Below, piece by piece: positions 6,130 to 22,226 of a stretch of 22,483 nt of DNA (the stretch's first letter is position 1; each line of letters begins with the position of its first letter). A program made the position numbers and the translations under genes. The DNA lies in IMG/VR virus record IMGVR_UViG_3300028840_000945, positions 1 to 22,483 of that record; one strand, written 5' to 3'. This DNA is from a virus. The notes under the pieces are model-generated. The model saw nothing but the letters and a program-made list of their open reading frames with translations. It searched no databases and was not told where the DNA came from.

Positions 6130-7782
6130 ATGTACGAAGATAATATAGAAAGTGAAGTGATTGAAGCGCATGTCTCATGTGATAAATGTGGTAGCTCCGA
6201 TGCTCGTTCGAATTACTCGGACGGGCACGGTTACTGCTATTCATGTGGACATTACTACCACCCTGAAGGTAAACCTTATACAGGAGGAACTAAACGTATG
6301 CCAGTAGATTTTACCCCTGTTGAGGGAACTGTAAAACCACTTAAAGTACGTGGGATTACAAAAGAGACCTGCCAAAAGTTCGGATATAAGATCGGAAAAT
6401 ACAATGGAGAGCCTGCTCACATTGCTAACTACCACAAAGATGGTAATTTGGTTGGTCAGAAAATAAGACTTGCAAATAAAGAGTTCCGCTGGAATGGAAT
6501 TAAAGAGCGTCCGCTGTTTGGGATGCATCTCTGGAAGTCCGGTGGTAAGATGATTGTGGTAACTGAAGGTGAAATAGATTGCCTGACAGTATCACAGGTC
6601 CAGGACAATCGCTGGCCTGTAGTATCAATACCACAGGGTGCCCAGGGCGCCAAACGAGCAATCTCAGATAATATCGAGTATCTAGAAGGTTTTGAAAGTG
6701 TTGTTCTGATGTTCGATCAGGATGAACCAGGACAGAAGGCTGCTAAAGAGTGCGCACAGTTATTAAGTCCAGGTAAAGCAAAGATAGCTTCACTTCCTCT
6801 TAAAGACCCTAATGAGATGTTACTTGCAGGAAAAGAAGATGCGATCAGATCATGTATCTGGAATGCTTCCGACTATGCTCCAGATGCTATTGTGAATATG
6901 GAAGATCTGTGGGAAGGTATCAATCAGAAAGTTGAAAGAGGATTATCATATCCTTGGCCTACGCTGACTGAGATAACTGATGGTGTACGGCTTCATGAGA
7001 TGATTCTATTAGGAGCTGGTACAGGACTCGGTAAGACAACATTCTTCAGGCAGATCATTCACCATTTTGTAATGGAACATAAGTTAGACGTAGGAATCGT
7101 TTTCTCTGAAGAGACAGTTGAAGAGACAGCAAGAGAGCTAGTAGCTCTTGAGCTTGAAGTACCACTGTCAAGAGAAGATGCTGATATGGAAAAGAAAAGA
7201 GAGGCATTCGAGAAATTCGGAAGCAAAGTACATATGATCAAGAACTTTCTCACCGTTGGTTTCGATGGGATTGTCAGCCGGATTCGTTATTTGCATCTCA
7301 GTAAGGGAGTACAGTACTTCTTTGTTGACCATGTAACAGCAATGGTATCTGGTGGTGACTTTGATAATGAACGAATTGCATTAGATAATATAATGACAAA
7401 ACTTCGGGACTTAACAACCGAACTTAACATAACAATTATGATGATATCTCATCTGACAACACCAGAGAAAGGAGCCCATGAAGAAGGAGCGAACGTATCA
7501 ATCAGACAGTTCCGTGGATCAAGAGCTCTTGGACAATGGCCGAACACAATCCTTGCTATTGAGCGTAATCAGCAGGATGAAGACGAGTCTAAGCGGCATA
7601 CAAGCATCGTTAAAGTGCTTAAGCATAGACCCAGAGGTTCAGTTGTTGGGAGGAAAATACCTCTTAAGTTTAATGAGAGAACCGCGAAACTAACAGAACT
7701 AAAATTTGATGAAGAACCAAAGTCAGCTGGTACTCCAGATACCTGGGAAGAAATCAGTGATGATGACTTTGATGCGTTCTAA
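6130..7782 (+). CDS. Primase-helicase, T7 gp4-like
   Basis: 550 residues; T7 gp4 is 566. The N-terminal zinc motif CDKCGSS...CYSCG (18-42) reads the primase recognition site. The Toprim primase core has VTEGEIDCLTVSQ and VVLMFDQDEPGQKAA. The RecA-like helicase follows, with Walker A GAGTGLGKTT and later FFVDHVTAMVS and MISHLT, typical of the hexameric DnaB/gp4 group. The protein unwinds DNA at the fork and lays primers for the polymerase encoded downstream. The C-terminus is acidic and ends DDDFDAF, like the T7 gp4 tail that docks on polymerase. AAGGAG lies 6 bases before the start. Confidence 0.96.
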   Translation: MYEDNIESEVIEAHVSCDKCGSSDARSNYSDGHGYCYSCGHYYHPEGKPYTGGTKRMPVDFTPVEGTVKPLKVRGITKETCQKFGYKIGKYNGEPAHIANYHKDGNLVGQKIRLANKEFRWNGIKERPLFGMHLWKSGGKMIVVTEGEIDCLTVSQVQDNRWPVVSIPQGAQGAKRAISDNIEYLEGFESVVLMFDQDEPGQKAAKECAQLLSPGKAKIASLPLKDPNEMLLAGKEDAIRSCIWNASDYAPDAIVNMEDLWEGINQKVERGLSYPWPTLTEITDGVRLHEMILLGAGTGLGKTTFFRQIIHHFVMEHKLDVGIVFSEETVEETARELVALELEVPLSREDADMEKKREAFEKFGSKVHMIKNFLTVGFDGIVSRIRYLHLSKGVQYFFVDHVTAMVSGGDFDNERIALDNIMTKLRDLTTELNITIMMISHLTTPEKGAHEEGANVSIRQFRGSRALGQWPNTILAIERNQQDEDESKRHTSIVKVLKHRPRGSVVGRKIPLKFNERTAKLTELKFDEEPKSAGTPDTWEEISDDDFDAF

Positions 7783-7793
7783 GGAGATATAAT

Positions 7794-8024
7794 ATGAGTA
7801 AAAGTCATAAGTTAGGCGAACGCTTTATAAAAATGAATGCCCTTAAGATACTTGTGGGTAGATCAAAATCAATGGAAATAAAGCTAATCGATCATGTAAA
7901 AGATGGTGTGTTAGTAGTCATTAATAAGGATAATGTCGACAAGAGTGTAGTACTTATGGATTCTGATAGAGTTACAATTGACGAGTCTGAAGTATTCGTT
8001 AAACAATTGCTGGAGAAACTATGA
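7794..8024 (+). CDS. Hypothetical protein, 76 residues
   Basis: ATG 7794 has AAGGAGAT ahead, and the stop overlaps the next start (ATGA, 8021-8024). The sequence runs from a basic first third into alternating beta-like stretches (MEIKLIDHVKDGVLVVINKD) and an acidic C-terminal helix. I see no catalytic or metal motif and no membrane segment. Its place between helicase and polymerase points to a replication accessory role at most. Confidence 0.65.
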   Translation: MSKSHKLGERFIKMNALKILVGRSKSMEIKLIDHVKDGVLVVINKDNVDKSVVLMDSDRVTIDESEVFVKQLLEKL

Positions 8025-8404
8025 AGAAACTTAATAACCTATTCACTGAAAAGATTGGACCAAAGCTGTGGGTGCTTACTAAACCACTTAAATTCGATGG
8101 AATTACCATTCCAGAAGGATTCGTTACTGATGGGGCTAGTGCTCCTAACGTTGCTGCCAGCATAGCTCCACCTATGGGATTTGCAGGAGCTGCAGCTGCA
8201 GTACTTCACGATTGGTTTTACAGTCTAGATTCAGGTAAGAGCAATATCTCACGTAAAGAGGCTGATAAAATATTCTATGAAACTATGAGATCCTGTGGTG
8301 TTGGATATTTCAGAGCCAAGGCAATCTACTGGGCTGTGAGAGCAGGTGGTAGTTTCTCATTCAAGAAATGCTATTCAAAAGAAAAACTCGAAGATAACCA
8401 ATAG
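8021..8404 (+). CDS. DUF1353 family phage protein
   Basis: 127 residues with the family's hallmarks: a beta start (KLWVLTKPLKFDGITIPEGF), VTDGASAPNV, AAAVLHDWFYS, EADKIFYETMRSCGVGYFRA and a closing AVRAGGSFSF. DUF1353 proteins are common in phages and have no settled function; conserved His and Asp residues (HDW) hint at a metal or catalytic site, which is inference. The start overlaps the upstream stop by 4 bases, so translation is coupled. Confidence 0.85.
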   Translation: MKKLNNLFTEKIGPKLWVLTKPLKFDGITIPEGFVTDGASAPNVAASIAPPMGFAGAAAAVLHDWFYSLDSGKSNISRKEADKIFYETMRSCGVGYFRAKAIYWAVRAGGSFSFKKCYSKEKLEDNQ

Positions 8405-8413
8405 GAGAAAATA

Positions 8414-8713
8414 ATGGGCGGAACTAAACATGACGCTCAGAAACCCCGTATGGATCTCATCCCGGCTGAATCCTTGGTCGGGATGGGTGAGGTACTTGGA
8501 TTTGGAGCTAAAAAATATGATGAACACAACTGGAGAAAAGGGATCGACCATAGTAGGCTTTTTGCTGCTGCTCAGCGTCATTTGTGGAAGTATTGGAATG
8601 GAGATACTCTCGATGAAGAGTCTGGTATCAGCCATCTTGCTCATGCCATGACTAATATAGCCATGATGATGGCAAGTCCTGATTATGATGATCGTTATAA
8701 GAAGGAGGAATAA
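8414..8713 (+). CDS. Predicted dATP/dGTP diphosphohydrolase-type protein (DUF5664-like)
   Basis: 99 residues matching the compact family formerly called DUF5664: KHDAQKPRMDLIPAESL, LGFGAKKYDEHNWRKG, RLFAAAQRHLWKYWNGDTLD and SGISHLAHAMTNIAMMM. The Glu, His and Asp residues across two helices suit an all-alpha MazG-like metal site. As I recall the family annotation, members split purine dNTPs into dNMP and diphosphate; in 2-aminoadenine phages a related enzyme, MazZ, feeds the synthesis of the modified base. Many ordinary phages also have it, so here it may simply tune nucleotide pools. The stop overlaps the DNA polymerase start by one base, tying the two in translation. Confidence 0.8.
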   Translation: MGGTKHDAQKPRMDLIPAESLVGMGEVLGFGAKKYDEHNWRKGIDHSRLFAAAQRHLWKYWNGDTLDEESGISHLAHAMTNIAMMMASPDYDDRYKKEE

Positions 8714-10512
8714 TGACAAGGTACACTTTTGACATTGAAACTAACGGATTATTAGATGATGTATCTGAATTACATTGTGTTGTAGCTGAAGATTTAGACA
8801 GCGGAGAAGTGCTTATTGGCACAAGCCGGGATAAAGCCGGTATGGATAAGATTATCCGGAAGCTCGAAAATGCTGACTTAATCATCGCTCACAACGGTAT
8901 TGGATACGATGTACCAGCTCTTGATATACTCGTTGGATTCGAGCCAAAAGGGTACGTATTCGATACATTAATAGCAGCCCGTTTAATATGGGCCGATATT
9001 AAAGGGCATGATTTTCAGAGGAATAAGAAAGGAAACTATCCTGCAAGACTTATTGGATCACATTCACTTGAGGCGTATGGTTATAGGCTTGGTGAATTGA
9101 AGGGTGATTTTGGTAAGCAAGAGAATGCTTGGGAAGTACTAACAGATGATATGATTACATATTGTGTACAGGATGTGAAGGTCTTAACAAAGCTGTACAA
9201 CTACATCCTATCAAAGAAATATTCCAAGCAAGCCCTCGATATCGAAATGAAGTTTGCAACCATCATTGAAGCACAGATCAGACATGGTGTTAAGTTTGAT
9301 GAAGACTTAGCTATTCAGACCATGCTTGAGATCAGATCAAAGATGGATGAGATAGGAGCGAAGCTTCAAGAAGCATTTCCTCCTCGTTATGTCTCACCAG
9401 ATCAAGGTAAAGTGAATACCAGTAAGGTAAACAATAAGAAACTTGGAAAGACAAAAGGATGTCAGTTTTGTAAGATCAAACTTGAGACATTCAATCCAGG
9501 ATCAAGATTACAGATAGGTCAGAGGCTTATCGATAAATATAACTGGTCACCTGATGTCTTCACAGAAACAGGAATACCAAAAGTAGATGAAACTATCTTA
9601 GCATCTCTAAAGTATCCCGAAGCACAATTAATATCAGAATACATGACACTGGCTAAACGTATTGGACAGATCAGTGATGGTCGACAGGGTTGGCTAAAGG
9701 CTGTTAAGAACGGGAGGATACATGGAAGAGTTAACACACTTGGTGCAGTTTCTGGAAGATGTACTCATTCAAGTCCAAACCTTGCTCAAGTTCCTGCCGT
9801 CCGGGCTGCATACGGTAGGGAGTGCCGTAGAATGTTTACTGCACCTCCTGGATATGTTATTGTTGGTTGCGATGCATCTGGCCTTGAGTTACGTGGTTTT
9901 GCTCACTATCTGTCTCCTTGGGATGGAGGGGCATATGCCAAGAAAGTTCTTGAAGAAGATATTCACTCATTCAACCAGCACGCTGCGGGCCTTCCTACAC
10001 GTGATATGGCGAAGACGATGATATACGGCCTACTATATGGCGCCGGAGATCAGAAGCTAGGTACAATCGTAGATGGAGGTATCAAAGAAGGTAAGAAGAT
10101 CAGATCCAAGTTTATGGCGATGCTCCCAGCTTACAAGAAGCTTGCGGAGACAATTAAAACCAGAATGAATAATACAGACAAAAAGAAACATGTCTTGAAA
10201 GGAATCGATGGAAGAATTCTTAAGCCACGTTCTGAGCATAGCGCTCTTAATCTACTTATCCAGTCTTCTGGTGCAGTTATCATGAAGGTAGCACTCATTG
10301 AGTGTGATAGGATGGCTAGAGAGGCTGGACTGGATTACCATTTTGTCTTAAATATCCACGATGAGTGGCAGGCAGAAGTTAAAGAAGAACATGCGAAACA
10401 GTTTGCGACTATATCCGAACAGGCTATTAGAAATGCTGGAGATATCTTGAAGTTCAAGTGTCCTCTAGATGGCGAAGCTAAGATCGGTAAAACATGGGAA
10501 GATACACATTAA
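8713..10512 (+). CDS. Family A DNA polymerase with 3'-5' exonuclease, T7 gp5-like
   Basis: 599 residues (T7 gp5 has 704). The exonuclease domain opens with FDIETNGL (Asp7, Glu9) and continues with HNGIGYDVPAL, GSHSLEAYGYRLGE and YCVQDV. The polymerase domain has the AKRIGQ thumb helix, GRCTHSSPNLAQVPAVR, motif A GCDASGLELR (Asp387), motif B RDMAKTMIYGLLYGAG and motif C NIHDEWQ (His549-Asp550), so both catalytic Asp are present. The roughly 75-residue thumb insertion that binds host thioredoxin in T7 is replaced by a shorter loop with a CQFC pair (Cys250, Cys253). GGAGGAA gives a strong ribosome binding site. This is the replicative polymerase; how it becomes processive is unknown. Confidence 0.96.
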   Translation: MTRYTFDIETNGLLDDVSELHCVVAEDLDSGEVLIGTSRDKAGMDKIIRKLENADLIIAHNGIGYDVPALDILVGFEPKGYVFDTLIAARLIWADIKGHDFQRNKKGNYPARLIGSHSLEAYGYRLGELKGDFGKQENAWEVLTDDMITYCVQDVKVLTKLYNYILSKKYSKQALDIEMKFATIIEAQIRHGVKFDEDLAIQTMLEIRSKMDEIGAKLQEAFPPRYVSPDQGKVNTSKVNNKKLGKTKGCQFCKIKLETFNPGSRLQIGQRLIDKYNWSPDVFTETGIPKVDETILASLKYPEAQLISEYMTLAKRIGQISDGRQGWLKAVKNGRIHGRVNTLGAVSGRCTHSSPNLAQVPAVRAAYGRECRRMFTAPPGYVIVGCDASGLELRGFAHYLSPWDGGAYAKKVLEEDIHSFNQHAAGLPTRDMAKTMIYGLLYGAGDQKLGTIVDGGIKEGKKIRSKFMAMLPAYKKLAETIKTRMNNTDKKKHVLKGIDGRILKPRSEHSALNLLIQSSGAVIMKVALIECDRMAREAGLDYHFVLNIHDEWQAEVKEEHAKQFATISEQAIRNAGDILKFKCPLDGEAKIGKTWEDTH

Positions 10513-10521
10513 GGAGATAAT

Positions 10522-10707
10522 ATGAAAAACGCTATTGTAGCTTTACTTGCAGGCATTATGCTCACAGGATGCACAGCATCACTCAGTGCTATCAAGCCAG
10601 CATATCAGGCAGCACGGGACGCTTATATCGAAGCTCGTGACAGTTATGTCGAAGTAAAAGAAGATATTGACTATGTACGTAAAGACATTGAAGGAGAATT
10701 AAGATGA
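10522..10707 (+). CDS. Small predicted lipoprotein, 61 residues
   Basis: A signal peptide with lipobox (KNAIVALLAGIMLTGC) predicts cleavage before Cys17 and lipid attachment. The 44-residue mature part (ASLSAIKPAYQAARDAYIEA, then RDSYVEVKEDIDYVRKDIEG) has a heptad-like pattern and is probably a single helix or coiled coil. AAGGAG precedes the start. It may sit in the outer membrane. It could be an Rz1-like spanin, but it is not proline-rich and no Rz partner is nearby, or a lipoprotein blocking superinfection. The exact role is unknown. The stop overlaps the next ATG (ATGA). Confidence 0.75.
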   Translation: MKNAIVALLAGIMLTGCTASLSAIKPAYQAARDAYIEARDSYVEVKEDIDYVRKDIEGELR

Positions 10708-10760
10708 GAGAATTTCTGAACGCATTAATGAATACTCACCTGAAACTGAGACTGCTGTAA
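10704..10760 (+). CDS. 18-codon minicistron ending at the ribozyme
   Basis: ATG 10704 overlaps the lipoprotein stop by 4 bases and has AAGGAGAA 6 bases ahead, the same arrangement as other coupled genes here. It encodes MREFLNALMNTHLKLRLL and ends at TAA 10758-10760, directly against the first bases of the hammerhead ribozyme. It is too short to judge as a protein; it may be a leader peptide that places ribosomes at the ribozyme, or a chance start. Confidence 0.4.
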   Translation: MREFLNALMNTHLKLRLL

Positions 10761-10822
10761 TTTCGAAACTCCCTTCGGGGAGTCTGATGTCTTAGGCAAG
10801 CATCACTGATGAGATAGCCTAA
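10761..10822 (+). ncRNA. Hammerhead ribozyme, type II, with loop I pseudoknot
   Basis: All conserved core bases are present in type II order. GAA is at 10765-10767. Stem III is a perfect 6-base-pair helix (10768-10773 with 10778-10783) capped by the tetraloop TTCG, including the required A-U pair next to the core. The cleavage-site base is C10784. Stem I is a perfect 5-base-pair helix (10785-10789 with 10801-10805). CTGATGA is at 10806-10812. Stem II is short (C10764-G10813, T10763-A10814), perhaps extended by AT pairs 10758-10762 with 10826-10830. Loop I carries TTAGGC (10792-10797), exactly complementary to GCCTAA (10817-10822) just after stem II, forming a pseudoknot that would supply the loop I contact that natural hammerheads need. 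Predicted cut: between 10784 and 10785. It lies 9 bases before the AAAGGAGG of the next gene. Confidence 0.9.
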
Positions 10823-10842
10823 AATAATTATAAAGGAGGTAC

Positions 10843-11025
10843 ATGAAGACCGCTGAAGAACTGTGTGAACGACTTGCTGAGATCCGTAAAGGATACGACT
10901 ATGTGAGAGAATTACGATCATCTCTACACATTGATGAGCTTGGTACTTATACCGAAAAGCTAGACAACATGTCGATCGCTTTACATTCCGAAGAATTAGA
11001 TATTTATCGTGAATTAAGGAGATAG
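10843..11025 (+). CDS. Small charged helical protein, 60 residues
   Basis: ATG 10843 follows a strong AAAGGAGG (10832-10839). The protein (MKTAEELCERLAEIRKGYDY to ...EELDIYRELRR) is rich in Glu, Leu and Arg and should be mostly helical. It is the first gene downstream of the ribozyme, so its message would begin with the cleaved end carrying a 5' hydroxyl. No family is recognised. Confidence 0.65.
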   Translation: MKTAEELCERLAEIRKGYDYVRELRSSLHIDELGTYTEKLDNMSIALHSEELDIYRELRR

Positions 11026-11035
11026 GAGAAAAATT

Positions 11036-11194
11036 ATGTATAGATGGATTACTGATGATTATTTAGATACAGAAGAAGCCCGGCGGGAAGCTGCCTCGGA
11101 CTTTGTTGAGGAATATTGTAGCCACTGCAAGCACCTGCTTGATGGTGACTGTGTTGAATGTTTTGGTGACGGATATTACTTTGAAGAGGAGTAA
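11036..11194 (+). CDS. Small Cys-rich acidic protein, 52 residues
   Basis: ATG 11036 has AGGAG ahead, and the TAA is two bases before the exonuclease start. The sequence MYRWITDDYLDTEEARREAA is followed by YCSHCKHLLDGDCVECFGDG. The CxxC...CxxC spacing suggests a small zinc-binding knuckle. The rest is strongly acidic. I do not recognise a family; it may be a small regulator of the adjacent nuclease or of a host protein. Confidence 0.6.
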   Translation: MYRWITDDYLDTEEARREAASDFVEEYCSHCKHLLDGDCVECFGDGYYFEEE

Positions 11195-11196
11195 CT

Positions 11197-12000
11197 ATGG
11201 CAACTAAAAAACGTGGGTTTAATCAGCTGTTAATCGATGCAGATGGATACATATTCAGCACAGCTTGCGTATGTGAAAAACCAAATCCTTTTGATCCTAA
11301 CGAACCTCCCGTAGTAGATGTAAACATGGGGCAGGCTATTCTACGGAAACGGTTCAATGAACTTTTTGACAGGCTAAGAGCCGACAGCTACATTATGTTC
11401 CTTTCCTGTAGGAGAGAAGAGGGACATCGTCGGTTAATGGTAGATGAAAGCTACAAAGCAAACCGGAATAATAAGAAGTCCCCGGCAGCGCTACAGCCTT
11501 TGAGGAAATGGGTAGAAGAGAATTATGAATGCATGAGTGTACCTCATCTGGAAGCGGATGATCTAATTGGTATTTATGCTACAGAGAAACAGACCACTTA
11601 CAATAGGATTATCGTGTCATTTGATAAGGACGTAATTGGTCTTCCAGGTAAGACGTATCATCCGAAGCAAGAAAAGAGGAGGATGGTAAAGAAGACAACC
11701 AGCTTTAAATTCTTTATATATCAGTGTATCGTTGGTGATACTGCTGATGGTTATAAGGGAATCCCAAGAGTAGGGAAAGTTGGGGCTAATAAATTCCTGG
11801 CTTCATGCCGGACATTACGTGAGATGTGGCCTAAACTTATTGAGTTCGCTGCATCGAAAGGATTAGATGAAGAATACATGCTTAAACAGGCTCGCATGGC
11901 GTATCTTTTGCGACATTGGAATTATGATATGGATACTGGCGAGATTCGGTTATTTGATCCGGAAGTCGATATTGAGAAGATGATAACTGGTGAATATTAA
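11197..12000 (+). CDS. 5'-3' exonuclease, T7 gp6-like (FEN/PIN superfamily)
   Basis: 267 residues. Conserved acidic motifs of flap nucleases appear in order: LLIDADGYIF near residue 12, YKANRNNKKSP, LEADDLIGIYAT, IVSFDKDVIGLPG and GDTADGYKGIPRVGKVGANK (the helix-hairpin-helix that grips DNA). In T7 the enzyme removes RNA primers and degrades host DNA into nucleotides. Unlike T7, it is separated from the polymerase gene by a lipoprotein, a ribozyme and two small genes. The start has GAAGAGGAG upstream inside the previous stop region. Confidence 0.93.
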   Translation: MATKKRGFNQLLIDADGYIFSTACVCEKPNPFDPNEPPVVDVNMGQAILRKRFNELFDRLRADSYIMFLSCRREEGHRRLMVDESYKANRNNKKSPAALQPLRKWVEENYECMSVPHLEADDLIGIYATEKQTTYNRIIVSFDKDVIGLPGKTYHPKQEKRRMVKKTTSFKFFIYQCIVGDTADGYKGIPRVGKVGANKFLASCRTLREMWPKLIEFAASKGLDEEYMLKQARMAYLLRHWNYDMDTGEIRLFDPEVDIEKMITGEY

Positions 12001-12017
12001 TATAGAGGAGGATGGTG

Positions 12018-13973
12018 ATGGAGATTAACAGTCCAATACTAAAAGATACTATTCATAACCTCGCACCATCCTCAGATTTAACAGTATCTGAGTGGGGAGC
12101 GAAGTACAGGGTAATGACCCAATATGATAGCCCCGCCGCTGGCCAACTGTTCGATAACAACAGAGTTCCCTATACAGTAGGGATTATGGATTCATTCTCT
12201 CAGCAAAGTGTGAGAATGATAGTGTTCAAGGCTGGAACTCAGATCGGAAAAACGAACATGATGATGAACATGCTTGGATGGGTTGCAAGTGAAAAACCTG
12301 GTCCAACCATGCTCGCATTACCTACAAAGGAATCAGTGGACAGATTCTCATCTGCCCGAATAGATCCGATGTTCAAAGCAAGTCCAAAGTTGAAACCGTT
12401 ACAGCAGAAGAAGTGGCGAACACAGCAGAAACACTTCAATGGTGGTGTGCTTTATCTTGCTACCTCAAATTCATCTGCTCAGATGTCCTCAGCATCAGTT
12501 GAGTATGTATTTGCTGATGAGTTGAAAGACTGGAAGTCCTCTGTTAATACTGGTGGATCAGATGCTGTAAAGTATCTACTTGATAGACAGAAGACTTTCC
12601 CCTACACTAAAAAAGCCGTATTGGTATCCTCACCTTCTGGTGAAGAATCAATGCTTGAAAAATACTATGACGCTTGCGAAGTCAAAGTACAATACCATGT
12701 AAGATGTCCGAAGTGTCAGTATCAACATGTGCTGAAATTTGAGAACATTGACTTTGGTGAAGAGTACTTTCCATTTGATGTTCCTAGAGAGAAAGACAAC
12801 AGTGATTACTGGGCAGCTGCCAGGAAACACGCTTGCTATATATGCCCTGAGTGTAGTCATAGAATAACCGATTACATGAAGCCAAAGATGAATCGAGCAG
12901 GAGAGTGGCTTACAGAAGATGGTGATCCTATTCCTAAAGATGCTGTGTCTATTGGATTCCAGCTGTCCTCTCTATACTCTCAAGACTTGAAGTGGGGTGA
13001 CATTGTTTTTGAATTCCTAGAATCACGTCAGGATCGGCATAAGCTCGAGAACTTCATCACCGGATGGTTGGGTGAATGTTGGACCAATGACGTAGTCGCT
13101 ACTAGTGAAGAAGAGCTTAGGAATAATATTATTGATCTTGATCCTGTAACAGCTCCAGTAGACACAATTGCTATCACGGCTGGTATTGACTGCCAGGCAA
13201 CTCATTTCTATTTCAGTGTCTGGGCATGGAATAAAGCAGGGGATGGAACGATGATTCACCATGGAATGTTAAATACATTCGAGGAAGTAAGTGATCTAGT
13301 CCATACTAATGAATATCCAATCTTAGGTACAGATGAAACCATGCAGATCTGGCGTGCTTCAATAGATACAGGTGGTGGAATGTCTACCAATGAAGCTGGT
13401 ATGGAGTACTCAATGACAGATGCTGCATATAGGTTTGTCAGAGAACATAGTAGAGGTAAGATATTTGCCGTAAAGGGTAATTCGGTTAAGATGGCTGGAC
13501 GTAGAGTTCAGATGTCCATGCTTGACAAATTCCCAAATGGTAAAGCAATGCCAGGTGGACTCGCTCTTTATTTACTTAACACAGAGGAGTTCAAGGAAAC
13601 ATTATTCTGGAGATTTGCAAGAGAAGAAGGTGAGCAGAATAGATTGGTATTCAATAAGGATGTCGATAAAACATGGTTTGCACACCTGACAGCGGAAAAG
13701 AAAGTTTTAAATGATAAAGATGTATGGGAATGGAAGCAGGTTAAGAAGCGTAACGATTACCTCGATACCTGCGTGTATAACTTAGCTTTAATTGATCCTC
13801 AGTTCGGTGGTGGACTTAAGGTACTCGGAAACAAGAGAGCCTCATTAAATAAGTCAAAAACAGTACAGGATCAAATGGCTGAACTTAACCATTTCGCACA
13901 GCAAAATAAAAAACCGCCAGCCTATAACCAACCGGTACGACGCCGGATAAGTGATGGGTGGCACAGGAGGTAA
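12018..13973 (+). CDS. Terminase large subunit, lambda gpA family
   Basis: 651 residues. ATG 12018 is preferred to ATG 12012, since GGAGG ends at 12011 and leaves no spacing for the earlier codon. Typical gpA start: SDLTVSEWGAKYR and DNNRVPYTVGIMDSF. The ATPase has the Walker A-like AGTQIGKT (72-79) and Walker B VEYVFADE with Asp167-Glu168. Two Cys pairs (CPKC and CYICPEC) flank a segment that may bind zinc, as in many gpA relatives. The nuclease half begins near AGIDCQATHFYFSVWAW, whose Asp should bind metal, and includes FAVKGNSV and DTCVYNLALI. It cuts concatemers and drives DNA into the prohead. No small terminase subunit is recognisable in the window. Confidence 0.94.
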   Translation: MEINSPILKDTIHNLAPSSDLTVSEWGAKYRVMTQYDSPAAGQLFDNNRVPYTVGIMDSFSQQSVRMIVFKAGTQIGKTNMMMNMLGWVASEKPGPTMLALPTKESVDRFSSARIDPMFKASPKLKPLQQKKWRTQQKHFNGGVLYLATSNSSAQMSSASVEYVFADELKDWKSSVNTGGSDAVKYLLDRQKTFPYTKKAVLVSSPSGEESMLEKYYDACEVKVQYHVRCPKCQYQHVLKFENIDFGEEYFPFDVPREKDNSDYWAAARKHACYICPECSHRITDYMKPKMNRAGEWLTEDGDPIPKDAVSIGFQLSSLYSQDLKWGDIVFEFLESRQDRHKLENFITGWLGECWTNDVVATSEEELRNNIIDLDPVTAPVDTIAITAGIDCQATHFYFSVWAWNKAGDGTMIHHGMLNTFEEVSDLVHTNEYPILGTDETMQIWRASIDTGGGMSTNEAGMEYSMTDAAYRFVREHSRGKIFAVKGNSVKMAGRRVQMSMLDKFPNGKAMPGGLALYLLNTEEFKETLFWRFAREEGEQNRLVFNKDVDKTWFAHLTAEKKVLNDKDVWEWKQVKKRNDYLDTCVYNLALIDPQFGGGLKVLGNKRASLNKSKTVQDQMAELNHFAQQNKKPPAYNQPVRRRISDGWHRR

Positions 13974-13977
13974 CAAA

Positions 13978-14199
13978 ATGGCAGTTAAAACTCTTGTAGA
14001 AAGAATCGAAGAAGTACAGCAGGCCATTACCGAATGTCTCACCTCCCAGGAATTGACCACACAGGCTGGTTCTGTTATGAGAGCCCGTCTTGACTTTCTG
14101 ACCAAGTACGAAAGACAGCTACTTGATCAGTATGAGTTAGAACAGGCAGGATCTACTGGTGGATTCCAGAACAAAGTGAGATTTAGGAGGGTGAGGTAA
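13978..14199 (+). CDS. gpW-like head-tail joining protein
   Basis: 73 residues from ATG 13978, which has CAGGAGGT 7 bases ahead; an in-frame ATG at 13951 lies inside the terminase and lacks a good site. The sequence is helical (LVERIEEVQQAITECLTSQE), has a LDFLTKYERQLLDQYELEQA helix and a basic C-terminus FRRVR. Size, terminal basic tail and location between terminase and portal match lambda gpW, which closes the head after packaging. Similarity is by pattern and position rather than strong identity. The stop overlaps the portal start by one base. Confidence 0.75.
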   Translation: MAVKTLVERIEEVQQAITECLTSQELTTQAGSVMRARLDFLTKYERQLLDQYELEQAGSTGGFQNKVRFRRVR

Positions 14200-15725
14200 T
14201 GACGATACTGGATATGAACGGAAACCCGGTTGAATCGAAAGTCCGTAAGTTCAGTAACGCTCCTCGTTACTCAGGTGCTGATTTAAGCCGACTTACGAAT
14301 GACTGGGTATCATCTTCTATGGACAAGGCAGATGCTAACTCTTGGGATGCGTATGCTCTTCGTGTACGGTCCAGAGACTTAATGAGAAACGACCCGGTTG
14401 CTTTTGCAGTAATTGACACCATGATCACCAATGTGATTGGATATGGGTTACAACTTCAGTCAGACATCAGTGCAAAGAAACTCGGAGTATCCGAAGAAAA
14501 AGCCGCCAAGATTCAGGATGCATGTGAAGATGTATTCTGTGAATGGTCTAAAAATGCTGACAAAGCTCGGGTACTGAACTTCAACGAGTATCAGAGACTA
14601 GCCTTTCAGAAGATTATGGTAGATGGAGAAGCTATTGTTCTTCCAACATGGGCCGAAGGTCCTAGGAAGGAATTTGGCAGATGTCTTCAGATGCTAGAGT
14701 CAGAGGAATTGGATACGAATTGGATACCGAATGATAAGACATTGAACGGGATTACGTTTGACACAGATGGAGCTCCCAAAACATATTGGCTGAAGAAGTA
14801 CAAGAAAACCGAAAGATTATCGACCTCTATGCGTCCACAGGCTATTAAGGCTAGGGATGAGATGGGAAGACCTAATGTTTTACATATTTTCGAAACTGCT
14901 AGACCGAACCAGACTAGGGGTTTACCTAAACTTACTCCGGTTATGTCTAAGTTCCAGGACTTCAACGAATACCTTGAAGCTGAGATTGTCTCTGCTCGTG
15001 TTGCGGCATGCTTGGCAGTATTTGTTCAGAAGAATGATGCCGTAAGTGCGGCACAGGCAATGGGTGCTGATGACTATGATTACTATGGTCAGAGACAGCA
15101 GGATATAGAACCTGGTGTTATTAACTATTTGGAACCAGGTGAGACCATTGAAGTTGTCGATCCTAAACGTAATGATTCAATTGGAGCTTTTACATCATCA
15201 ATTATGCAGATTGTTGGAATGGCTACCGGACTTCCATATGAACTCTTGGTAAAAGACTTCTCAAAGACAAACTATAGCTCCGCACGGGCTGCTCTTTTGG
15301 AAGCAAGACGTCAGTTTGAATACTATCGTAAATGGTTCGCAGATAAATTCTGTCAGCCGATATACGAGCTGGTTATTGAAGAAGCTTACTACAGAGGTAT
15401 GCTGCCAATTACCCAGGCTCAGTTCGATAGTAAATTCAGTCAGATCACAAAAGCAAAATGGAATGGATCTCCGTTTGGTCAGATTGATGAGGTTAAAGAG
15501 ACTCAGGCAGCTATCCTTAGGATTAATTCTGGTCTGTCATCGTATGCTGATGAGCTTACTGGTGATGGTAAAGATTGGAAGAATGTATTCGCTCAGAGAA
15601 AACGAGAGAATGAACTGTCAAAAGAATATGGATTAGGTTTTGAGTTATCTACTACTCTAAGTAAAGGCAAAACTCCAGGATCAGGAACAGGAGGTAACTC
15701 GAATGCCGACACCGAAGAAGAATGA
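14199..15725 (+). CDS. Portal protein, lambda gpB family
   Basis: 508 residues. Recognisable blocks are NAPRYSGADLSRL, LRVRSRDLMRNDPVAFAVID, NVIGYGLQLQS, NEYQRLAFQKIMVDGEA and the C-terminal FTSSIMQIVGMATGLPYELL, SSARAALLEARRQFEYYRKW and QPIYELVIEEAYYRG, all typical of the lambda portal family. Twelve copies should form the ring through which DNA enters and the tail attaches. GGAGGGTGAGGT precedes the ATG. The end overlaps the protease gene by 23 bases in another frame. The last 25 residues are a Gly/Ser/Thr-rich flexible tail. Confidence 0.95.
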   Translation: MTILDMNGNPVESKVRKFSNAPRYSGADLSRLTNDWVSSSMDKADANSWDAYALRVRSRDLMRNDPVAFAVIDTMITNVIGYGLQLQSDISAKKLGVSEEKAAKIQDACEDVFCEWSKNADKARVLNFNEYQRLAFQKIMVDGEAIVLPTWAEGPRKEFGRCLQMLESEELDTNWIPNDKTLNGITFDTDGAPKTYWLKKYKKTERLSTSMRPQAIKARDEMGRPNVLHIFETARPNQTRGLPKLTPVMSKFQDFNEYLEAEIVSARVAACLAVFVQKNDAVSAAQAMGADDYDYYGQRQQDIEPGVINYLEPGETIEVVDPKRNDSIGAFTSSIMQIVGMATGLPYELLVKDFSKTNYSSARAALLEARRQFEYYRKWFADKFCQPIYELVIEEAYYRGMLPITQAQFDSKFSQITKAKWNGSPFGQIDEVKETQAAILRINSGLSSYADELTGDGKDWKNVFAQRKRENELSKEYGLGFELSTTLSKGKTPGSGTGGNSNADTEEE

Positions 15726-16875
15726 AACACGCAAAGATTTTATTGACCGTTGCATTCCGTACGTAATTAAGGACGGAACTGCCAAGGATGGCAAACAAGC
15801 TTATGCCGTGTGTAGATCAATGTATGATCGAAAGGACAAAAAGAAAATGTCGAATGCAACCTTGAATGCGGACGTAAAGTGCTTTGCCCAGACCGACGGT
15901 GCTGAAAAAGAATTTGATTTCGAGCTGGTAGGCTATACCGGAAAGATTATGTCTCAGATGGGTCATAATTTTATCTTTGATCTTGATGGTATCGAAGCCA
16001 AAGATGGTGGGGTAATCATTTTGCGAGAACACGAACGTGATCGGATTGTTGGTCATGGTCAGGTATCTAAAGATGAACGAGGTCTGGTAGTAAGAGGTAA
16101 ATTCTCCCAGGCTACTAAAGATGGTAAAGAGATAAAAGCCATCCTGGAAGAGGGGATAGTACCTCTCCAGTGTTCCGTTGGGATTGCACCTGAATCAGTA
16201 AGAGCTGGAGAAGATGGAATGTCTATCAACGGGTTCGCTATCAACGATAGGGTTCAGGTTTGGGATAAAAGTTATGTGGGTGAAGTCTCTATCTGCTCAT
16301 GGGGAGTTGATACTGACACATCCGTAAGATCTTTTGCGAAGGAAATAGATATGGAAGATATCAAGAAAGAAGAAATCAAAGAAGAAGAAGTAAAGGCTTG
16401 TGAAGAATGCGGTAAGGACGTTTGCGAATGTGGAGACGATCATGCTGACGAATCTAAAGAAGAAGTTAAAGAAGAGAAAGTTGAAGAAAAGGCTGGAGAC
16501 GATACGGAAGAGAAGAAATTTAGCGCTGCTGACATGGACGCTGCTATACTCGCCGAAAGAGCAAGGGTAGCTGGTATCCTTGATGCTGGTGCTCCTCTGG
16601 AGCTGGCTCACAAAGCTATCACTGATGGTATGGATGAAGGAGCTGCTTACAAATTCTTCTGGCAGTCTGAGAAAAGCAAGAAAGACGTTGGTCTTGCTGA
16701 AATGGCTGCTGCTGCTCCTGTTGTTGAAAAAGTTATTGAAGACAAGAAAGATGCTGAGCCTGGATACACTGAACTTATCGAACTTGCAAAAGCCGAAGGT
16801 AAATCACACATGGACGCTATGGCTCACGTGATGAAAAACCACCCGGAAGCTTACGCTAAATTTATTGAGGGATAA
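15703..16875 (+). CDS. Prohead protease fused to scaffold domain
   Basis: 390 residues. The start at 15703 is supported by AGGAGGT inside the portal gene. Residues 1-48 form a basic Cys-containing segment (KKNETRKDFIDRCIPYVIKD), an add-on seen in several phage proteases. Residues 55-210 are the serine protease: ILREHERDRIVGHG (His110), GLVVRGKFSQATKDGKEIKA and VPLQCSVGI (Ser158) fit the HK97-type U35 family. From residue 217 the protein becomes a highly charged Glu/Lys scaffold (EEVKACEECGKDVCECGDDH is one odd Cys-rich stretch) ending in helices. The protease matures the prohead and the scaffold shapes it. An internal start at 16351 may make scaffold alone. Confidence 0.88.
   Translation: MPTPKKNETRKDFIDRCIPYVIKDGTAKDGKQAYAVCRSMYDRKDKKKMSNATLNADVKCFAQTDGAEKEFDFELVGYTGKIMSQMGHNFIFDLDGIEAKDGGVIILREHERDRIVGHGQVSKDERGLVVRGKFSQATKDGKEIKAILEEGIVPLQCSVGIAPESVRAGEDGMSINGFAINDRVQVWDKSYVGEVSICSWGVDTDTSVRSFAKEIDMEDIKKEEIKEEEVKACEECGKDVCECGDDHADESKEEVKEEKVEEKAGDDTEEKKFSAADMDAAILAERARVAGILDAGAPLELAHKAITDGMDEGAAYKFFWQSEKSKKDVGLAEMAAAAPVVEKVIEDKKDAEPGYTELIELAKAEGKSHMDAMAHVMKNHPEAYAKFIEG
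16338..16353 (+). promoter_or_regulatory. Possible internal ribosome binding site and start for separate scaffold
   Basis: GAAGGA (16338-16343) lies 7 bases before an in-frame ATG at 16351, codon 217 of the protease gene, exactly where the protease ends and the charged scaffold begins (MEDIKKEEIKEEEV). Starting here gives a 174-residue scaffold. Lambda makes scaffold Nu3 from inside gene C in the same way. This is suggestive only; AG-rich coding sequence can mimic such a site. Confidence 0.5.
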
Positions 16876-16877
16876 TT

Positions 16878-17324
16878 ATGCCGAGACGTGATGTACAATT
16901 GACCGTAGCCCTTGGCGCTGGCCCGAACACGACTCCAATTTCGGGGTCGTGGAATCAGGGCATTGCAGTAGCTGCTGACGGCCATGATGATTGGGGCATG
17001 CTGAAGGGTAAAGTTGCTTCAACTGGTGATGATATCATCGGATGGACTATTAAACCTCAATTAGAGGGTGATATTGCAACTCTTCGGACTATGTTTGACG
17101 GTACCATAGACGTAGAACTCGGTCCAGGTTATCCAGCTGAGCTGACAACTTGGGTAGGTGATCCTCTATGGCTGATGAATGATGAAAGTGGACGTTTAAC
17201 TAAAAACGGTGATCTTGTTCCTGCAGCACAGCAGTATTGTGCACTTGCCCTTGAAGCGGGTAAAGTAGAAGGAAATCGCTGTGAAGTTTACGTCTTTACT
17301 CAGAAAAATATTCTTAACAGATAA
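16878..17324 (+). CDS. Decoration-like head protein 1 (148 residues)
   Basis: First of seven adjacent genes with a shared pattern. ATG 16878 sits 3 bases after the protease stop, preceded by GAGGGATAAT. The N-terminus is Gly/Pro-rich and likely flexible (LTVALGAGPNTTPISGSW). The core has the array's signature in a weak form: IIGWTIKPQLEGDIATLRTM, then a FDGTIDVEL strand, a PLWLMNDESGRL strand pair, and a final ALALEAGKVEGNRCEVYVF. Such all-beta proteins between protease and capsid usually decorate the head lattice (lambda gpD position). It is the most divergent member, so membership is less sure. Confidence 0.65.
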   Translation: MPRRDVQLTVALGAGPNTTPISGSWNQGIAVAADGHDDWGMLKGKVASTGDDIIGWTIKPQLEGDIATLRTMFDGTIDVELGPGYPAELTTWVGDPLWLMNDESGRLTKNGDLVPAAQQYCALALEAGKVEGNRCEVYVFTQKNILNR

Positions 17325-17335
17325 GGAGTGAGGAC

Positions 17336-18028
17336 ATGGCAACTTTTTATGATCATGACTACTGGGAATTTACTGCCGATGTTACTTCCGCTCCTGTATA
17401 TGTAGGTACGGCTGTAGACTTCGTACGTAGAGTCGATGGTAATCCGATTCCGCTTGTAAAACCTGCTACTGCTGATAATGATGTATATGATGACAATGCG
17501 AGAACAACTTATATTGGAGTAGCAATGCAGGCTGGCGCAGTGGGTGATAGGATTACCTGTCGCTGTTGGGCTGCTGGTACAATGCCAGCATTGGTTGAAA
17601 CTGAGATCGATTTGGAAGCTGGAAGTGAGTTATATTGGGACGGTGCTAAGTTTGTATTGAATGATCCGGCTACCACAGAGTACACCACTACTGGGATAAG
17701 CGACAACGGAACTTCCGAACTTTATCTTGATGTAGCCGCAGCTGGATGGACCGCCAATGAGTGGCAGCATCATGAGCTTATCATAACTAGTGGTGAGCAC
17801 GCAGATGAAAGATTCATCGTTCACTCAAACACAGCTACACGAATTGTGATTGAAACTATCGATCTGGTTGATTGGACTTCTCCTATTACCTTCGAAATTT
17901 GTAACGACAACGAAGCTGGGTATGGTAGGAGAACAGCTGTAAACATGTCTAAAATTACCGGTACACCCGCTCCTAATGCTGAACCTCAGATTTGTGAACT
18001 ACTCGTATTAAAAGGAGGACGTACATAA
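17336..18028 (+). CDS. Decoration-like head protein 2, with inserted beta domain (230 residues)
   Basis: Starts after AAGGAGTGAGG. Residues 20-110 have the array pattern: a variable-head strand (VYVGTAVDFVRRVDGN), YIGVAMQAGAVGDRITCRCW, AAGTMPAL, LEAGSELYWDGAKFVLN. Residues about 118-188 are an insertion ending with SNTATRIVIETIDLVDWTSP, then the array's last strand returns as AEPQICELLVLKGG. A similar insertion occurs in protein 4 of the array. This insertion resembles a small beta domain found in various phage appendage proteins and may project outward. Role as head decoration is inferred from position and pattern. Confidence 0.7.
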   Translation: MATFYDHDYWEFTADVTSAPVYVGTAVDFVRRVDGNPIPLVKPATADNDVYDDNARTTYIGVAMQAGAVGDRITCRCWAAGTMPALVETEIDLEAGSELYWDGAKFVLNDPATTEYTTTGISDNGTSELYLDVAAAGWTANEWQHHELIITSGEHADERFIVHSNTATRIVIETIDLVDWTSPITFEICNDNEAGYGRRTAVNMSKITGTPAPNAEPQICELLVLKGGRT

Positions 18029-18432
18029 TGCCTACTCACAATATTTCAATGACATGTATAGCTAATGAAGATATCGATCTGTATGCTGCTGTTAAAATAG
18101 TACGAGAAGAAAATCCAACAGATGGACTTCCTGCCGTTGAGATGACAGATACAGCAACAGATATTGTATTTGGAATCTGCATGAATGCGGCACGGGCAGG
18201 TGAATTAGTAACTGTCCGTAATCCATTCAGTGGCATCCTTCCTGCTTATGCATACATCAATGTAGAACCTGGTGATAGATTAACACTCGGACTATCTCGT
18301 CCTGGGTCTTTCTCAAATAATACAGACGCTCAGTACAGTAGAAGTATAGCGTATGTTATGCAGATAGGGGACTCCTCTGATACTGAAGAGACCAGATGTG
18401 CTATTATCTTTACCAGAGCATACTACGTATAA
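18028..18432 (+). CDS. Decoration-like head protein 3 (134 residues)
   Basis: Overlaps the preceding stop by one base, with AAAAGGAGGA upstream. It shows the basic unit of the array without insertions: IANEDIDLYAAVKIVREEN, VFGICMNAARAGELVTVRNP, FSGILPAYAYINVEPGDRLT, and a last strand RCAIIFTRAYYV. The AGELVTVR box is the clearest form of the shared motif and is reminiscent of DUF2190-type capsid proteins, a comparison made from memory. It is likely a capsid surface protein. Confidence 0.75.
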   Translation: MPTHNISMTCIANEDIDLYAAVKIVREENPTDGLPAVEMTDTATDIVFGICMNAARAGELVTVRNPFSGILPAYAYINVEPGDRLTLGLSRPGSFSNNTDAQYSRSIAYVMQIGDSSDTEETRCAIIFTRAYYV

Positions 18433-18441
18433 GGAGAGAAA

Positions 18442-19065
18442 ATGGGACATAGAAATCATAATTTAAGCTATATTGCTGCGGCAGATATCCATGCCGGACG
18501 AGCTTTACAACTTCAGTCAGATGGAACAGTAAGAGAGCTTGAGGACATCAACCTTCCAATTATCGGCTGGGCACAGGAAAACGTTCATGCTGGATTTCCT
18601 GTATCAGTTAGATTGATGGTTGAGGGTACACTGATGGTTGAATTTGATCCGCTTGATGATTGGTCAATATCTGCCGGAAAGATGTTAGAACTTAGCAGGG
18701 ATACGCTTGGAACTGTTAGAACTCGCAGGAATGAGATATCTTCCACATCTACAACCGTAACTGTCGGTTCTGGGGAGGTAACTTTCAACAATGTTGAGGA
18801 TACCTTTGTAGTTGATGAACTTGTTGGCCTTACATGCTGGTTCCGTGATGGGACTAATGCCGGAAAATCCGGTATTGTAACTGCAAATGGAGTCAACTCT
18901 ATTACTGTACAAACTACCTTAACAACCTGGGAAGATGTTACTTTGGTAACTACTGGCGCGAATATGATGGGATATTCTCTGGAAAGACGGGAACCAGCAG
19001 ATACTACGAAGAAGTATATTCATGCACTTATTATCCGTCAGTTATCCATGTCTGAAAGACAGTAA
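18442..19065 (+). CDS. Decoration-like head protein 4, with inserted beta domain (207 residues)
   Basis: AAGGAGAG precedes the start. Unit pattern: IAAADIHAGRALQLQSDGTV, PIIGWAQENVHAGFPVSVRL, MVEGTLMVEFDPL, WSISAGKMLELSRDTLG. Residues about 100-171 are an insertion (VVDELVGLTCWFRDGTNAGK, then SGIVTANGVNSITVQTTLTT) that parallels the one in protein 2: a strand, a W or L anchor, a Gly-containing turn, and then a strand after an Asn. The array's final strand follows as KKYIHALIIRQLSM. Probably a head decoration protein carrying an extra outward domain. Confidence 0.72.
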   Translation: MGHRNHNLSYIAAADIHAGRALQLQSDGTVRELEDINLPIIGWAQENVHAGFPVSVRLMVEGTLMVEFDPLDDWSISAGKMLELSRDTLGTVRTRRNEISSTSTTVTVGSGEVTFNNVEDTFVVDELVGLTCWFRDGTNAGKSGIVTANGVNSITVQTTLTTWEDVTLVTTGANMMGYSLERREPADTTKKYIHALIIRQLSMSERQ

Positions 19066-19076
19066 GGAGATAAATA

Positions 19077-19523
19077 ATGGATGCAACAAGAGAAGTAACA
19101 ATAACAGGGAGAGCCAGAGTTGATTTTGAAGTTGGGGATGCTGTTTATATCTTCTACCAGAACAGCGAAGCGAACCCAACTGATATAGGTGTAAGCTTTT
19201 CAAAGCCGCCTACCTCAGGAAACGAAGGTAGAGTTGTACATGGAGCTGCTATTACAAATGCCAAAAGCGGAGAGTTAATGACAGTTCGCCTGGCATTTGC
19301 TGGAACTTTAGGAATTAAAGTAAACTGGACAGGCAATCTAACACCAGGTACTTTACTTTATCCGCCGGCAGAGTCCGCAGACTCATTATCTGCAATCCCT
19401 GGAGCATTCCGTACAAATGCGCTCGGGTTCTATGTTGGTAAAGATATTCATCCTGAGTCGGTATCCGGACAGATTTGCGAAGTTTTAATCGTTAGAGTCG
19501 GTCCTGACTATTCCGTAGTATAG
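19077..19523 (+). CDS. Decoration-like head protein 5 (148 residues)
   Basis: Starts after AAGGAGATAA. Unit pattern: ITGRARVDFEVGDAVYIFYQ, VVHGAAITNAKSGELMTVRL, AFAGTLGIKVNWTGNLTPGT, LLYPP, and a closing ICEVLIVRVGPDYSVV strand. The SGELMTVRLAFAGTL box matches AGELVTVRNPFSGIL of protein 3 almost position for position. No insertion is present. A capsid surface role is inferred. Confidence 0.75.
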   Translation: MDATREVTITGRARVDFEVGDAVYIFYQNSEANPTDIGVSFSKPPTSGNEGRVVHGAAITNAKSGELMTVRLAFAGTLGIKVNWTGNLTPGTLLYPPAESADSLSAIPGAFRTNALGFYVGKDIHPESVSGQICEVLIVRVGPDYSVV

Positions 19524-19535
19524 GGAGGTAGAATT

Positions 19536-19964
19536 ATGAATAAACCGTATGGCTCACTATTCGTTGAGCTGACAGAAGATATTGACTCCGGAATGAGGGT
19601 CCGAGCTACAGGAGAAAACCATACAGGTTTGTACCCTAAGGTAGAAAAAGCTTTGAATAAAGTAAAAGCTTGGTTTGGAATTACTTTAGAAGGTGGAAAA
19701 GAAGGTGATATTGTACCTGTATATCCGCCTTATTCCGGAACCGTTATGGCACGAGTCCTTGCAGATGTAAACCCCGTTAGAACTGGTGATTGGGTCTATA
19801 CAGATTCGTCTGGATATTTTACTACAACTACTGGGACTGGACGTATTCCTACGGCAATTATCGTAACGCCGTTGATGAATGAAGCACCAGCTCCAAATAA
19901 AATTGTTAAAGCAATGGTATTTGTTGGACGTTATCTTTATGATGGCGGCGGATATCAGCCTTAA
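19536..19964 (+). CDS. Decoration-like head protein 6 (142 residues)
   Basis: Starts after GGGAGGT. Unit pattern: SLFVELTEDIDSGMRVRATG, WFGITLEGGKEGDIVPVYPP, YSGTVMARVLADVNPVRTGD, WVYTDSSGYF, and a last strand VKAMVFVGRYLYDGGGYQP. It keeps the G-I/V-T-L then G-D/E box of the array but is diverged within it (EGDIVPVY). No insertion. A capsid surface role is inferred. Confidence 0.73.
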   Translation: MNKPYGSLFVELTEDIDSGMRVRATGENHTGLYPKVEKALNKVKAWFGITLEGGKEGDIVPVYPPYSGTVMARVLADVNPVRTGDWVYTDSSGYFTTTTGTGRIPTAIIVTPLMNEAPAPNKIVKAMVFVGRYLYDGGGYQP

Positions 19965-19973
19965 GGAGACAGT

Positions 19974-21071
19974 ATGCCTTATACAACTGGTGCGAAAACT
20001 TATACGGCCTATGAAGATATGCCGAAACACCGTATTGTTGTTCTTCGTAACAGTTCTACCGATCCGTTTGAAGTAGAGCTCGCCAATCAGGATTCTGAAC
20101 ATCTGTTTGGCGTGACTCTTACAGCTGCGAAAGCCGGAGAACTTATATCCGTCAGACCTTTTGATAATGACGGAACATTTGAAATCGAATCTGCTGGCAC
20201 TATCGCACATGGAAGTCGTGTCTATGTGTATGATGGGACCGGTAGAGTAAATGATGAGGTCAGGGTTCCAATTGTTGGTAGAGCCTTAAACTCTGCTACC
20301 GTTGGTCAGGTTGTCACCGTTGCTCTGACAAAAGATATGGTTTACACACTTCCGGCTGAAGATATAACCATAGAGGATACCGGTGATCATTATACATCTG
20401 ATAATGTTGAAGGTGCTCTTCAAGAAGTCGGTACATCTATCGATACCATTGAATCGGACATCACAACCATTGAATCTACTCTGACAGACCTGCAGGATAC
20501 CAAAACCATTATTGAGTGGTTTGATTTTGATGATGCAGTGTCAGCAGCTGGTGGGGGTAACGGTAGTCCTGCGTCTAGTAGGCTGATTCCGATACTCAGT
20601 GAATATGCTGACCCGACAGGTGCTGATGCTGGAAAACTCTATAGGCAGGATTTAGGTAGTGGATACTATGGTGCAACCTATATCAGGAATATTGCATCAG
20701 GTTCCCTGGATACCAGAGACTACTATATGAGCATGAATATCAGACCTCGTCACAAGATTCATACAGCTGGGGCTATATCTTTTAGATTATATGCCTCTCA
20801 GGAGTCTACCGCTGGATCTACTCATTTTCATCATAGAGTAACAGCGCGTGGAACAGCTTCATCATTTGATGTTACACCGTACAGTATCATTTATTTAAGT
20901 GGACAATCATCCGCCGGATGGCATACGGGTGTATCATTCACCGCTGGACAGTTATCGTTCGATCCATCATCTTTCATGGTCTTCATGAGGATAGAATCAG
21001 ATGGAACAACGAATACAACTTCTTTCTATGGTCTGGAAATGACCTATGAAACCGATATTAACGATTTGTAA
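19974..21071 (+). CDS. Putative head fibre: decoration domain fused to coiled coil and beta-rich tip (365 residues)
   Basis: Last and longest member of the array, with AAGGAGA ahead of ATG 19974. Residues 1-120 are the decoration unit (LFGVTLTAAKAGELISVRPF, TIAHGSRVYVYDGTGRVND, GQVVTVALTK). Residues 129-152 (DITIEDTGDHYTSDNVEGAL) match the short linker repeated in many trimeric tail fibres. Residues 153-177 have a heptad-like coiled coil (IDTIESDITTIESTLTDLQD). Residues 180-365 are a Ser/Thr/Tyr-rich beta domain with no Cys. The arrangement of capsid anchor, trimer stalk and tip implies a fibre on the head rather than the tail. The tip family is not recognised; receptor or glycan binding is possible. 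Confidence 0.7.
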   Translation: MPYTTGAKTYTAYEDMPKHRIVVLRNSSTDPFEVELANQDSEHLFGVTLTAAKAGELISVRPFDNDGTFEIESAGTIAHGSRVYVYDGTGRVNDEVRVPIVGRALNSATVGQVVTVALTKDMVYTLPAEDITIEDTGDHYTSDNVEGALQEVGTSIDTIESDITTIESTLTDLQDTKTIIEWFDFDDAVSAAGGGNGSPASSRLIPILSEYADPTGADAGKLYRQDLGSGYYGATYIRNIASGSLDTRDYYMSMNIRPRHKIHTAGAISFRLYASQESTAGSTHFHHRVTARGTASSFDVTPYSIIYLSGQSSAGWHTGVSFTAGQLSFDPSSFMVFMRIESDGTTNTTSFYGLEMTYETDINDL

Positions 21072-21186
21072 TTAAACAAATAAAATATAATTAAAAATAA
21101 TGATTTACTGATTCCGAAGGGTAACACACCTGGAAAAGTTAAATCACAATAAATTAGCGTAAAATACGCACAGAAAGGAAACTATT
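21072..21186 (+). promoter_or_regulatory. 115-base leader of the capsid gene, possible promoter region
   Basis: This is the only gap of size between the protease and capsid genes, where otherwise genes are 3-12 bases apart. It is very AT-rich at 21072-21103 and then has ACTGATTCCGAAGGGTAAC (21107-21125). A perfect hairpin GCGTA-AAA-TACGC (21157-21169) follows, 8 bases before the AAAGGAAA ribosome binding site. A dedicated promoter for the abundant capsid protein would be expected here, but I cannot point to a consensus because the phage polymerase's promoter is not known. Confidence 0.45.
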
Positions 21187-22198: not shown

Positions 22199-22226
22199 AG
22201 GGCCCTCTTCGGAGGGTCCTTTTATT
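22199..22226 (+). terminator. Rho-independent terminator after the capsid gene
   Basis: A 9-base-pair stem (22199-22207 with 22212-22220, one G-U pair) capped by TTCG is followed by TTTTATT. The same C(TTCG)G cap occurs in the ribozyme's stem III. It would cut transcription between the capsid and the tail-connector genes. Confidence 0.9.

Follow-up and report, generated by a model that had tools for sequence, protein, structure and literature searches.

The window, that is the whole 22,483-nt stretch of phage DNA that was analysed, begins with a T7-like RNA polymerase gene at 3-884 (PF00940, E 6e-58) and further encodes a ribonucleotide reductase, a primase/helicase, a DNA polymerase I-type polymerase and a 5'-3' exonuclease. 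After the exonuclease, the terminase large subunit, portal and major head protein families were identified. The T7-like RNA polymerase and replication genes (3-884) share the contig with terminase, portal and head genes in lambda-like order (12012-22191). The DNA polymerase and exonuclease genes are separated by a block of small genes, in which the element described here is located between an 18-codon and a 60-codon open reading frame (ORF). From 6130 to 21071 the sole intergenic gap of at least 20 nt is 10761-10842, and it holds this element, a predicted ribozyme, together with one Shine-Dalgarno sequence. The features surrounding the gap are as follows.

10522-10707, + strand: 61-aa ORF with a lipoprotein-type signal (LTGC), without a PHROG match
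10704-10760, + strand: 18-codon ORF MREFLNALMNTHLKLRLL, ending in TAA at 10758-10760, with the Shine-Dalgarno sequence AAGGAG at 10691-10696 and a 7-nt spacer
10761-10823, + strand: predicted complete type II hammerhead ribozyme (RF02276 33.1 bits; covariance model R1 58.8 bits at 10760-10825)
10833-10839, + strand: Shine-Dalgarno sequence AAGGAGG of the downstream ORF, read from the sequence
10843-11025, + strand: 60-aa ORF, its ATG 30 nt after CTGATGA and 58 nt past the predicted cut, without a PHROG match
11036-11194: small ORF between the 60-codon ORF and the exonuclease gene

The ATG of the 18-codon ORF overlaps the stop codon of the lipoprotein gene (ATGA), and its TAA lies 4 nt before the GAA of the ribozyme. 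Because a nearby stop codon is, alone, weak evidence, we only infer that the gene immediately upstream is this ORF and not the lipoprotein gene; the ORF is short and could have arisen by chance. In the first-pass annotation the element had directly separated the lipoprotein from the exonuclease gene. This had to be revised, as the actual neighbours are the 18-codon ORF (10704-10760) and the 60-codon ORF, and the exonuclease gene, which begins at 11197, is separated from the ribozyme by the small ORFs 10843-11025 and 11036-11194. A sigma-70 promoter was not detected at the ribozyme site, nor was a T7-type promoter motif repeated in the gaps in a simple 16-mer search.

Several other features of the window were recorded. 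The longest non-coding gaps, 2647-2963 (before a lysozyme-like gene) and 21072-21186 (before the major head protein gene), are candidate promoter regions. Just 3' of the major head protein gene, 22200-22226 harbors a terminator-like hairpin, GGGCCCTC-TTCG-GAGGGTCC, followed by TTTTATT. Six successive small proteins within 17336-21071 (17336-18028, 18028-18432, 18442-19065, 19077-19523, 19536-19964 and 19974-21071) share a look-alike motif around 'AKAGELxTVR' and are possibly tandem relatives of a decoration-type protein.

Re-reading of 10761-10823 on the + strand identified all parts of a type II hammerhead.

10763-10764, + strand: stem II 5' strand (UC), followed by the core GAA; partner 10813-10814
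10765-10767, + strand: core GAA (G12 A13 A14), read from the sequence and invariant in relatives
10768-10783, + strand: stem III, ACTCCC-TTCG-GGGAGT, 6 bp with a UUCG tetraloop, U16.1 at its end adjoining the cleavage base; read from the sequence, covaries in relatives
10784, + strand: cleavage-site nucleotide C17, predicted cut 10784/10785, positioned by homology
10785-10805, + strand: stem I, TGATG/CATCA, 5 bp with an 11-nt loop; read from the sequence, covaries in relatives
10792-10797, + strand: pseudoknot strand 1, TTAGGC in loop I, exact complement of 10817-10822
10806-10812, + strand: core CTGATGA (C3 to A9), read from the sequence
10813-10814, + strand: stem II 3' strand (GA), counted as 2 bp, followed by the U-U mismatch and an A linker (10815-10816)
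10817-10822, + strand: pseudoknot strand 2, GCCTAA in the tail, 4 nt after CTGATGA, complementary at 6/6 positions

No core base departs from the hammerhead consensus: CUGANGA and GAA are present, A10768-U10783 forms the A15.1-U16.1 pair, and position 17 is C, not G. The order of the parts is that of type II, with GAA, closed stem III, the cut, closed stem I and CUGAUGA following each other and the open ends lying at stem II. Three helices meet at the core, namely stem III with 6 bp, stem I with five Watson-Crick pairs, a possible additional U-G and an 11-nt loop, and stem II with C10764-G10813, U10763-A10814 and a U-U mismatch at the third position. Loop I contacts the stem II side through six Watson-Crick pairs at the offset that is usual in relatives; in most type II hammerheads this contact is a pseudoknot. 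The GAA, stem III, C10784, CTGATGA and the 6-base complement of loop I and tail were thus all found where the first-pass annotation had placed them. Its 'perfect stem I' at 10785-10805 is correct in position, but consists of the five pairs (plus possible U-G) around the loop instead of a perfect 21-nt stem. Stem II had been regarded as the doubtful part; this concern was not upheld, as many family members have a stem II of at most 2 bp, and a single pair in stem II, together with a 6-bp pseudoknot, was enough for one ribozyme to cleave at >1.2 per minute in 0.5 mM Mg2+ (PMC3088659).

A 201-nt fragment was subjected to an Rfam cmscan, which matched Hammerhead_II (RF02276) over the full model length with 33.1 bits (E 2.3e-5). 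The check by type II covariance search proposed earlier therefore yielded a match, although one below the curated gathering score of 37 bits, which is a database cut-off and not a biological definition and which also excludes relatives with intact core and pseudoknot (e.g. L021 and L047). When Rfam was run over the whole window in gathering and E-value modes the element was missed, probably through filters, and RF02276 gave no matches over 16 related records, the window itself included. A covariance model (R1) was built from 39 aligned phage relatives, excluding the window. With filters off, R1 detected a sole significant match in the whole window, at 10760-10825 (58.8 bits, E 3.7e-14). A second hammerhead was not found in this search, the next-best match having an E of about 1. 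A minus-strand pattern candidate in the window was rejected, having loose stems and no R1 score. The same element, and no further one, is present in a second IMG/VR contig that is 99.9% identical over 10.8 kb, and a blastn search with the region found no match among 50,697 phage records. Since a 6-bp pseudoknot between the window loop and tail is expected in about 1% of shuffles, this pairing alone is modest evidence, and the claim is carried by the family.

Relatives were collected from viral contigs by a pattern comprising the type II core and a UUCG-capped stem III, which yielded at least 119 stretches; 39 of these, without the window, were aligned for R1 and for covariation counts. The core is invariant in the alignment because relatives were selected with a fixed core, a restriction that does not affect the helices, the pseudoknot or the gene context. 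The four helices were paired in 92.1% of cases, whereas shuffles reached 65.5%; doubly changed cells numbered 182, with 47 expected, and pairing dropped to 32-42% when partners were slid by 1-3 columns as a control. All four helices covary, stem III included: 6/6 modelled pairs of stem I, 5/5 pairs of the pseudoknot and 2/3 pairs of stem II, the latter being 98.3% paired and commonly 2-4 bp long (2 bp in the window). Of 65 relatives whose stem I is long, 52 have a pseudoknot of at least four Watson-Crick pairs (mean 17.9, maximum 27 with permuted tails); in relatives with a short stem I such a pseudoknot was no commoner than with permuted tails. The pseudoknot starts 3-4 nt after CTGATGA in 82 of 110 relatives, and 4 nt after it in the window. 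The cleavage-site base is C in 184 of the 185 hammerheads of the collected set. The pairings are therefore conserved in related phage hammerheads, and covariance and the match to the published type II consensus both support the proposed type II hammerhead and its loop I/tail pseudoknot.

Folding energies were calculated for the window RNA. The stem III hairpin amounts to -8.2 kcal/mol. In the nested minimum-energy fold (-19.3 kcal/mol) the loop I/tail pairing replaces stem I and part of the core is tied up; hammerhead stems I and III without the pseudoknot, which nested folding cannot score, reach -12.2 kcal/mol, about 7 kcal/mol above this minimum. According to this model a fraction of the RNA may misfold into the alternative structure. 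A similar gap was obtained for relatives (mean 6.1 kcal/mol), and it thus reflects a limit of nested folding or a common feature and no defect of the window copy.

Across relatives the ribozyme is strictly placed, preceded by a stop codon and followed by the ribosome-binding site of the next gene. A sense stop codon, counted for sense frames of at least 60 codons, lies 0-10 nt before GAA in 141 of 177 relatives (80%), compared to 4.5% at random sites and 11% at other CGAAAC sites. A Shine-Dalgarno sequence and start codon follow in 168/183 relatives, at a median of 28 nt after CTGATGA. The window fits this placement, with its TAA 4 nt before GAA and the start 30 nt after CTGATGA. A rule this sharp was not found stated in the open-access papers searched.

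When R1 was applied to whole contigs, arrays of 24 (57-kb contig), 12 (contig of L115) and 10 (contig of L042) hammerheads were detected. In contig IMGVR_UViG_3300017605_000570 (L027), the 24 hammerheads lie on one strand within about 7.5 kb (about 9930-17470), roughly one per 300 nt. Hammerheads are also present in cultured Roseobacter phages. In CRP-3 (L140, MK613345) two of them, at 2272-2346 and 2919-2997, exactly separate the annotated genes gp57/gp56 and gp56/gp55, and CRP-7 (L141, MK613349) has one at 569-635. No RNA feature is annotated at the hammerheads in either record, and the annotated start of CRP-7 gp02 (619) falls inside the ribozyme match, so that this start may be misplaced.

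When the same pattern was run against bacterial and archaeal genomes (257 Gb), 32 matches were obtained, little above a rough chance expectation of about a dozen, which marks the subtype as mainly a phage element. A constant neighbour gene was ruled out, as the 163 downstream proteins of relatives fall into 147 clusters. A general association with T7-like RNA polymerase was likewise rejected, since only one of 44 other hammerhead contigs encodes one. None of 93 relatives of the DNA polymerase (mostly 35-49% identical, several on short contigs) has a counterpart at the same place, and the element is thus dispensable in this gene order; the ribozyme is gained and lost and is no fixed part of the replication module. 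The only hammerhead near any of these 93 polymerases (L210, 12548-12614, - strand) is encoded on the other strand than the DNA polymerase gene, at a distance of about 5 kb, and has the core CTGACGA and an intact pseudoknot.

As early as 2011, Perreault et al. (PMC3088659) described type II hammerheads that possess this pseudoknot and occur in a phage context, so the window element adds another member to a known kind. Like RF02276 and these published examples, it combines closed stems I and III with an open stem II, and has CUGAUGA and GAA, C at the cut, a loop I/tail pseudoknot beside a very short stem II, and a phage gene setting, the published ones often occurring in phage or prophage gene clusters. 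It differs in its score (33.1 versus 37 bits) and in its 5-bp stem I with 11-nt loop. Moreover, it occurs only once, among the replication genes of a phage that encodes a T7-like RNA polymerase, with no array and no integrase nearby. For clustered bacterial and prophage hammerheads, cleavage of polycistronic transcripts was reported both in vitro and in E. coli (PMC3088659). Compared to phage arrays such as that of IMGVR_UViG_3300017605_000570, the RNA, the stop/Shine-Dalgarno site and the gene strand are the same, whereas arrays contain up to 24 copies, about one every 300 nt, and the window one.

We consider it probable, at roughly 0.83, that the window encodes a genuine type II hammerhead that cuts the polycistronic message of the phage once, between C10784 and U10785. 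Its most likely role would be to cleave this message so that hairpins are left at both new ends. The cut, 58 nt before the ATG at 10843, would split a message for the polymerase, the lipoprotein and the 18-codon ORF from one for the small ORFs and the exonuclease. As the type II order sets the cut between two closed hairpins, each new RNA end would carry a hairpin: the UUCG-capped stem III would form the end of the upstream RNA, and stem I or a refolded, stronger hairpin the beginning of the downstream one. In vitro, self-cleavage of the hammerhead class leaves a 2',3'-cyclic phosphate and a 5'-hydroxyl, and 5'-hydroxyl RNA is no substrate for 5'-monophosphate-dependent decay. Exonucleases should be slowed by the hairpin ends and the 5'-hydroxyl, as should decay that depends on a 5'-phosphate, and the messages of the polymerase side and the exonuclease side could then be separately stable and dosed apart. 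In T7, RNase III sites cut long phage transcripts into smaller messages whose new ends carry hairpins. The role proposed for the window is similar, in that a phage transcript is divided and hairpins remain at the new ends. RNase III, however, is a host protein and leaves a 5'-phosphate, whereas the window RNA would cut itself and leave a 5'-hydroxyl.

Could the ribozyme be real, but chiefly regulatory? Ribosomes ending at TAA 10758-10760 would sit on stem II, GAA and some of stem III, restraining cleavage, and cleavage or refolding would then set access to the downstream Shine-Dalgarno sequence. The stop codon abutting the ribozyme in 80% of relatives, the start just past the pseudoknot tail and the predicted downstream product, which refolds into a hairpin before the Shine-Dalgarno sequence (-12 kcal/mol over the first 75 nt), are in line with such control; compact phage genomes alone would, however, also give this tight packing, and we regard a chiefly regulatory function as unlikely.

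Still less probable is a decayed or chance hammerhead-like sequence that has lost cutting. The score under the Rfam cut-off, the mismatched third pair of stem II and the alternative nested fold of lower energy point in this direction, but decay should cost pairs, and here the core is undeviating, all helices are intact, R1 matches with an E of 3.7e-14, and the element occupies the usual family site between stop and start. That the locus is no ribozyme but an intrinsic terminator, or a processing hairpin for RNase III or RNase E, appears hardly credible: a strong UUCG-capped hairpin does lie in the intergenic gap, but no U-run follows it, a terminator scan of 10200-11400 found none, 6 bp are short for a classic RNase III site, and neither explanation accounts for the core and the covarying pseudoknot.

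The 2011 study (PMC3088659) stopped short of proving a biological role for hammerheads of bacteria and phages. Coming back to cleavage of the phage message, we tentatively propose, as a broader idea that is somewhat less likely to be right than wrong, that phage type II hammerheads could serve as a general, self-contained gene punctuation. Singly or in arrays of up to 24, and exactly between stop codon and Shine-Dalgarno sequence, they would divide long transcripts so that every gene has a message of its own, with a hairpin at either new end, and the terminating ribosome might set the timing; the window would represent a phage with a T7-type RNA polymerase in which self-cutting would take the place of host RNase III. 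The stop-codon/Shine-Dalgarno placement rule makes the processing idea testable, and because RNAs of this kind also occur in the cultured phages CRP-3 and CRP-7, this can be done in infected cells. For the window itself, whose lone copy lies within a compact, T7-like block of replication genes, the prediction is a single precise RNA end, a 5'-hydroxyl at 10785.
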